From positions 1-62,886 of the forward strand of contig PIYN01000016.1 of NCBI GenBank assembly GCA_003601775.1: a DNA stretch of 62,886 nucleotides, read 5' to 3'. A program made the position numbers and the translations under genes. Numbering within the stretch: position 1 is the first letter of the stretch; every line of letters begins with the position of its first letter. This stretch comes from Candidatus Bathyarchaeota archaeon (GTDB taxonomy: Archaea; Thermoproteota; Bathyarchaeia; TCS64; PIYN01). Below are positions 22,234 through 62,166 of this stretch, one piece after another. The notes beneath the pieces were generated by a model. That model was not told where the DNA came from. It did not search any database and was given only the letters and a program-made list of their open reading frames with translations.

Positions 22234-22321
22234 CTCTCAACCATACCCACCTCCAAAGCCAGAGGTAACTCGCCCTTAGGCTTCTTAAGTATTTCGCTTT
22301 TTAAAGCCTCAGAGAAGTTGG

Positions 22322-22413
22322 AGCGGCCGGCGGGATTTGAACCCGCGACCACGGGTTTTCTCCTACCATGGTATCCGAAGACCCGCGCCCTGTCCAGGCT
22401 GAGCCACGGCCGC
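22322..22413 (-). tRNA. tRNA-Arg(TCG) with a 17-nt intron at position 37/38
   Basis: Acceptor GCGGCCG/CGGCCGC, U8-G9, D stem GCTC/GGGC, anticodon stem CGGGT/ACCCG with mature loop CTTCGGA (anticodon TCG), and T arm GCGGG-TTCAAAT-CCCGC. After G37 there is a 17-nt insert with a perfect bulge-helix-bulge: CTTC pairs GGAG between bulges GGA and AAA, and the intron hairpin is TACC-AT-GGTA. Cutting after the second base of each bulge restores a 7-nt loop. The discriminator would be T, which is uncommon. A TATA element gtttatatag (22437-22446) lies ~28 nt upstream. CCA is not encoded. Confidence 0.94.
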
Positions 22414-61914: not shown

Positions 61915-62166
61915 CTATCCCTCCCTTACCCCACTCCGCTCCTTCTCATAAACCTTTAGGAGCTCGTCTATGATCTCGACGTGGGAGAGGAGCATACGCC
62001 TACAGCAGTACCTCGTGACCCCGAGGGAGTCCAAGACCTCATCCGGGGGCTCCCCCGCCTTCACCCTCCTGGCGAACTCCTCCCACTTGTCGCCTATGAC
62101 CTTGCCGCATGAGAAGCCTCTCGCCACGGCTCTTCACGGGCCGCGGTATCGAACCGGCACAATCAT
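61915..62166 (-). CDS. rpoN: RNA polymerase subunit N, predicted to be split by a 30-nt BHB intron
   Basis: Exon 1 is 62148-62166 (ATG start), exon 2 is 61915-62117; joined they encode 73 residues starting [18 protein letters not shown], the standard RpoN N-terminus, with zinc ligands C7, C10 and the CC pair in [11 protein letters not shown]. Unspliced, the ATG frame stops at a TGA inside the insert, and the longest open frame (GTG 62127) lacks MIVPVR and the first zinc cysteine. The junction falls within the Cys7 codon. RpoN helps assemble the RNAP core with RpoL, RpoD and RpoP. A TATA element gatttaaaag (62228-62237) lies upstream. Confidence 0.9.
62118..62147 (-). other. Predicted archaeal bulge-helix-bulge intron in rpoN mRNA
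   Basis: On the minus strand TTCG (end of exon 1) pairs with CGAG at the intron's end (one G-U). Three-base bulges ATA and AGG lie on opposite strands, and an inner hairpin is CCGCGGC/GCCGTGG with a 9-nt loop. Cutting after the second base of each bulge removes exactly 30 nt, the same rule that yields correct mature tRNAs for the two tRNA introns in this window. The outer exon helix is weak. Confidence 0.88.

Follow-up and report, generated by a model that had tools for sequence, protein, structure and literature searches.

The interrupted rpoN gene and its predicted product

The window, that is, the whole 62,886-nt stretch of DNA analysed here, belongs to contig C27 of the genome of an uncultured Candidatus Bathyarchaeota archaeon of 1.53 Mb (47 contigs, 92.7% complete) and carries on its minus strand, in this order, rpoN, rps2 and a MEMO-family gene. 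RpoN (RNA_pol_N, Rpo10) is a small essential subunit of RNA polymerase, and the closest named matches to the rpoN of the window are found in Candidatus Bathyarchaeota assemblies. An earlier note on this DNA had claimed that rpoN is interrupted by a 30-nt insert of the bulge-helix-bulge (BHB) type, and all the elements that it described, namely the frame, the central helix, both bulges and the inner stem, are present (Table 1). The insert, ACCGCGGCCCGTGAAGAGCCGTGGCGAGAG, breaks the coding frame: frame 1, read from 62166, gives the canonical RpoN start, then ten insert codons including an in-frame TGA, and then the remainder of RpoN. The MEMO-family gene (61293-60448, minus strand) also looked truncated at its N-terminus, which has no ATG, GTG or TTG. 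An intron was rejected as the cause in this case, since a likely CTG start (61293-61291) with a well-placed Shine-Dalgarno sequence (GGAGGGG, 7 nt upstream) explains it.

Table 1. Features of the interrupted rpoN locus (positions in the window)
Feature	Position	Strand	Basis
rpoN, whole gene including the insert	61915..62166	-	
rpoN exon 1, ATG ATT GTG CCG GTT CGA T (MIVPVR and base 1 of the Cys7 codon)	62148..62166	-	same start as in archaeal RpoN chains of known structure
Predicted BHB intron, 30 nt, in-frame TGA inside	62118..62147	-	frame, motif, excision scan
rpoN exon 2, GC TTC TCA TGC GGC ... from bases 2-3 of the Cys7 codon, stop included	61915..62117	-	ORF and Pfam match
ORF expected from an ordinary gene finder, 70 aa, GTG start, without Cys7	61915..62127	-	ORF list
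BHB central helix, 5' strand TTCG, in exon 1	62150..62153	-	
5' bulge ATA, predicted cut after AT	62147..62149	-	
Inner stem, 5' strand CCGCGGC	62140..62146	-	
Inner stem, 3' strand GCCGTGG	62124..62130	-	
BHB central helix, 3' strand CGAG, in intron	62120..62123	-	
3' bulge AGG, predicted cut after AG	62117..62119	-	

Excision of the insert joins the flanks into CGA TGC TTC and restores the canonical RpoN N-terminus. When all excisions starting in the first 60 nt and 3-69 nt long were tried, this was the only one that did so. The insert splits the codon of Cys7 into T and GC, so that this residue, the first of the CxxC...CC cysteines that act as zinc ligands in RpoN/Rpb10, exists only after splicing. 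The spliced protein matches Pfam RNA_pol_N (PF01194) over its full length (1-58 of 58, 110.6 bits), as compared to 5-58 and 92.5 bits for the naive ORF. It aligns end to end, from residue 1, with solved archaeal RpoN/Rpo10 and contains Cys7, Cys10 and the Cys-Cys pair in TRYCC. Thus, at the sequence level, the joined exons restore a full-length RpoN that is predicted to be functional. The claims that excision yields the canonical N-terminus with a TGC for Cys7, and that a standard annotation would miss one Cys by shortening the protein, both hold, the latter being in line with the 70-aa ORF. A second intact rpoN was looked for in the contigs of this 92.7% complete genome, and no other PF01194 match was found. 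The insert sequence is also present in a single copy in the genome, even with up to 3 mismatches allowed.

The BHB motif, its chance level and its folding

The boundaries dictated by the protein separate nucleotide 2 from nucleotide 3 in each bulge of a 3-4-3 BHB, where two 3-nt bulges are separated by a 4-bp central helix (one U-G pair) next to a 7-bp inner stem (one G-U pair). A motif as good as this in the required register was obtained with 4 of 200,000 shuffled inserts (exons fixed) and with 8 of the 125,653 30-mers of the window when these were put in place of the insert, which sets the chance of a BHB at the protein-dictated register at ~2e-5 to 6e-5. BHBs of such strength are common per se: the window (59.5% GC), with both strands counted, contains ~60 that are no longer than 40 nt. 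Since such hairpins are frequent anywhere in the window, the evidence lies in the coincidence of two independent criteria and not in the hairpin alone. A blind scan of the window for BHB-interrupted genes gave 192 candidates with zero discrimination, and was uninterpretable.

The outer exon-exon helix, to which the earlier note did not refer, has only 2 bp (G-C and G-U) in the strict register. The minimum-energy fold prefers a GCC/GGC pairing instead, by which the 3' bulge becomes a 2x1 internal loop; given this pairing, the motif is relaxed on its 3' side. The stability of the insert fold is ordinary (z -0.5). For short transcripts starting from the ATG, the central helix is predicted to pair with a probability of ~0.8-0.95. 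In transcripts reaching ~62103, a hairpin between the 3' half of the intron and exon 2 competes, and the central helix ranges from 0.01 to 0.87 depending on the window folded. During transcription, the BHB would be expected to form before the competing hairpin, which would favour splicing. The 5' junction (62145-62155, minus strand), GGTTCGATACC, resembles a tRNA T-arm, and its CGGT/ACCG could form a small competing hairpin; the likeness probably coincides with the PVR codons by chance.

Splicing enzymes, other introns and rpoN in related genomes

The genome encodes both a splicing endonuclease and a ligase. Two paralogues of tRNA_int_endo (PF01974) are present. The subunit on contig C38 retains the Tyr/His/Lys motif (KYGCDFAVYQHGPGIDHAPYIVQVKEP), is catalytic, and is closest to the chains of crenarchaeal heterotetramers (3p1z, 3ajv, 2cv8 and 2zyz). 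The paralogue on contig C2 (GVDFLLYERGAFGKRPPKYLVYG), a more distant homologue of the solved endonucleases, lacks the active-site His as judged from the motif and is non-catalytic. This is the subunit pattern of a hetero-oligomeric splicing endonuclease, into which the two would presumably assemble. Hetero-oligomeric endonucleases have been linked with relaxed, non-tRNA substrates (PMC2738675). An RtcB ligase is encoded on contig C15.

BHB introns with a 4-bp central helix are found in several tRNA genes, among them those for Tyr (43 nt), Lys (16 nt), Arg (12 nt) and Glu(TTC) (17 nt) and one at locus L170 (19 nt). The tRNA gene at window 22319-22413 (minus strand), which ARAGORN leaves without a name, can be read as tRNA-Glu(TTC) if a 17-nt BHB intron is removed at ~22358-22374, and the tRNA loci L041 (Ser-GGA) and L173 (Pro-like) seemingly have more than one intron or a non-canonical placement. 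The similarity of the rpoN intron to the tRNA introns of the genome is not above chance. Its likeness to window 39981-39954 (minus strand), with a score of 18, looked striking at first but was also rejected: this segment is part of a gatE frame that is intact, and scores of at least 18 were reached by random 30-mers in 6 of 200 trials, so the similarity is attributable to chance. The cbf5 gene of the host reads HGGTLDPKVTGVLP without interruption; no intron was found in it, the catalytic Asp region included, and the intron described here, which lies in another gene, does not belong to the cbf5-intron lineage.

Among 111 rpoN loci examined, almost all from Bathyarchaeia and with some genomes counted twice, 110 are uninterrupted at the intron site and contain P-x-R-C-x-[ST]-C-G with Cys7 in frame; the exception is the locus of the window, and no intron was seen at this site in any of the other 110. 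An rpoN match was obtained in 234 of 257 genomes in a survey of the class and in 391 of 397 genomes in a sample of the phylum. Among the genomes of the class listed, conspicuously weak rpoN matches were found only for the genome of the window and for G243, which was considered as a further interrupted case and rejected because a gap of Ns explains it. Outside the class, equally weak E-values occur in many lineages, for part of which the alignments were seen, and further rpoN introns may exist there. As the other rpoN loci read are uninterrupted, the intron looks private to the host lineage, and, judging from these comparisons, it is most likely a lineage-specific gain. The host genome is the sole member of its family among the genomes compared.

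Two side observations were made on rpoN in these genomes. G107, G108 and G109 (one genus), G001 and G476 have no rpoN match, although three of them are at least 94% complete. A gap of 100 Ns lies close upstream of rps2 in G107, and the missing rpoN in these five genomes may reflect a gap, a loss or a split gene; no sign of a split rpoN was found in the match-less genomes (genus g51, G001, G476 and others). In addition, the rpoN frames of L081, L093, L100, L104, L109 and others read II(I)PVRC and lack a Met, Val or Leu where the protein usually starts, which suggests that ATA/ATT or other unusual start codons may be used in Bathyarchaeia.

Proposed splicing, alternatives and comparison with known systems

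Considering the unique restoring register, the BHB at that register, the single rpoN, the splicing enzymes and the tRNA introns of the genome together, splicing is the best reading, and we put the probability that the insert is an archaeal pre-mRNA intron of the BHB type, excised by the tRNA-splicing machinery, at about 0.88. The gain in the Pfam match and the in-frame Cys7 of the other loci also make an intron in the sole rpoN, as the earlier note proposed, the best-supported reading. In this mechanism, the rpoN transcript would fold locally into the BHB, the two-subunit tRNA-splicing endonuclease would cleave after AT and after AG in the two bulges, and the exons would presumably be ligated by RtcB. 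Ligation would bring T and GC together as the Cys7 codon, allowing RpoN (Rpo10) to be made at full length, the CxxC...CC zinc site included. From the sequence, both cleavage and ligation are expected to take place in the cell, and no functional RpoN would be made without them. Splicing by the endonuclease and RtcB accounts for all the observations.

If the transcript were left unspliced, translation from the GTG at 62127 (MARGFSCGK...) or from another downstream start would give an RpoN that is altered at its N-terminus and, unlike all the others read, has three cysteines. The 70-aa ORF with its GTG start is indeed available for this. However, Cys7 and P-x-R-C are in frame in all the other rpoN loci read, and exon 1 keeps a perfect MIVPVR after its ATG although this would be useless without splicing; we regard this alternative as very unlikely. 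An artefact of assembly or sequencing, by which the organism would have an ordinary rpoN lacking the 30 nt, is conceivable in principle, as the gene is known from a single MAG contig of a genome that stands alone in its family among the genomes compared. Yet an error is unlikely to create a BHB with both cuts in the sole restoring register (2e-5 to 6e-5), and the insert copies nothing else in the genome at up to 3 mismatches, which leaves an artefact most unlikely.

That rpoN is a decaying pseudogene, with RpoN supplied from another copy, might be entertained because the contigs may lack ~7% of the genome. The single PF01194 match and the otherwise intact, highly conserved exons speak against it and render it highly improbable. 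A hairpin placed between two in-frame coding segments also calls to mind translational bypassing, where the ribosome hops over the hairpin and the RNA stays uncut. Because the Cys7 codon is split into T and GC, with no whole codon on either side, bypassing cannot supply this residue and only RNA excision regenerates TGC; hence bypassing is almost inconceivable here. If the insert is spliced as proposed, it is tempting, albeit speculative and in our judgement unlikely, to regard the intron as a control point, at which the capacity of the splicing endonuclease, and the BHB as opposed to the alternative hairpin of the 5' region, would set the amount of full polymerase and couple its assembly to tRNA splicing.

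The splicing of rpoN, if true, would make it a second protein gene with a coding intron spliced by the endonuclease, in this case in a core RNA polymerase subunit. It would also imply that such coding introns, seemingly none of which has been described in Bathyarchaeia, arise independently, and that automated gene finding and annotation truncate the proteins concerned without any warning. It would be worthwhile to look for more cases among proteins in which a conserved residue near the N-terminus is missing. The earlier note was not aware of any reported rpoN intron, and in our full-text search of open-licence papers no report of an intron or BHB in rpoN/Rpo10 was found.

Short introns in cbf5 pre-mRNA (16-44 nt) have been described in Desulfurococcales and Sulfolobales, where they split the codon of the catalytic Asp after base 1, and unconfirmed introns have been predicted in other protein genes (PMC2738675). 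In 2020, cbf5 was given as the only additional reported archaeal mRNA with a BHB intron besides the 5'-UTR case of that study (PMC7714728). The rpoN intron resembles the cbf5 introns described in PMC2738675 in being a short BHB intron (30 nt) in a protein gene, in interrupting a key residue's codon after base 1, and in having a BHB that may be unconventional, as those of cbf5 often are, in a host with a two-subunit splicing endonuclease. Unlike the cbf5 introns of that source, it lies in rpoN, in the class Bathyarchaeia and six codons past the start, and is known from sequence alone. With the Haloferax volcanii HVO_1309 mRNA (PMC7714728) it would share cleavage of an mRNA at a BHB by the splicing endonuclease, as predicted for rpoN, although the HVO_1309 intron is in the 5' UTR and that of rpoN lies within the coding sequence. 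Archaeal BHB tRNA introns, several of which are present in the host genome, have the same motif and presumably depend on the same enzymes, and the rpoN intron differs from them by its mRNA context. Taken together, our best reading is that the rpoN intron is a new member of the mechanism class that the cbf5 introns represent, and that it extends this class to a new gene and lineage.
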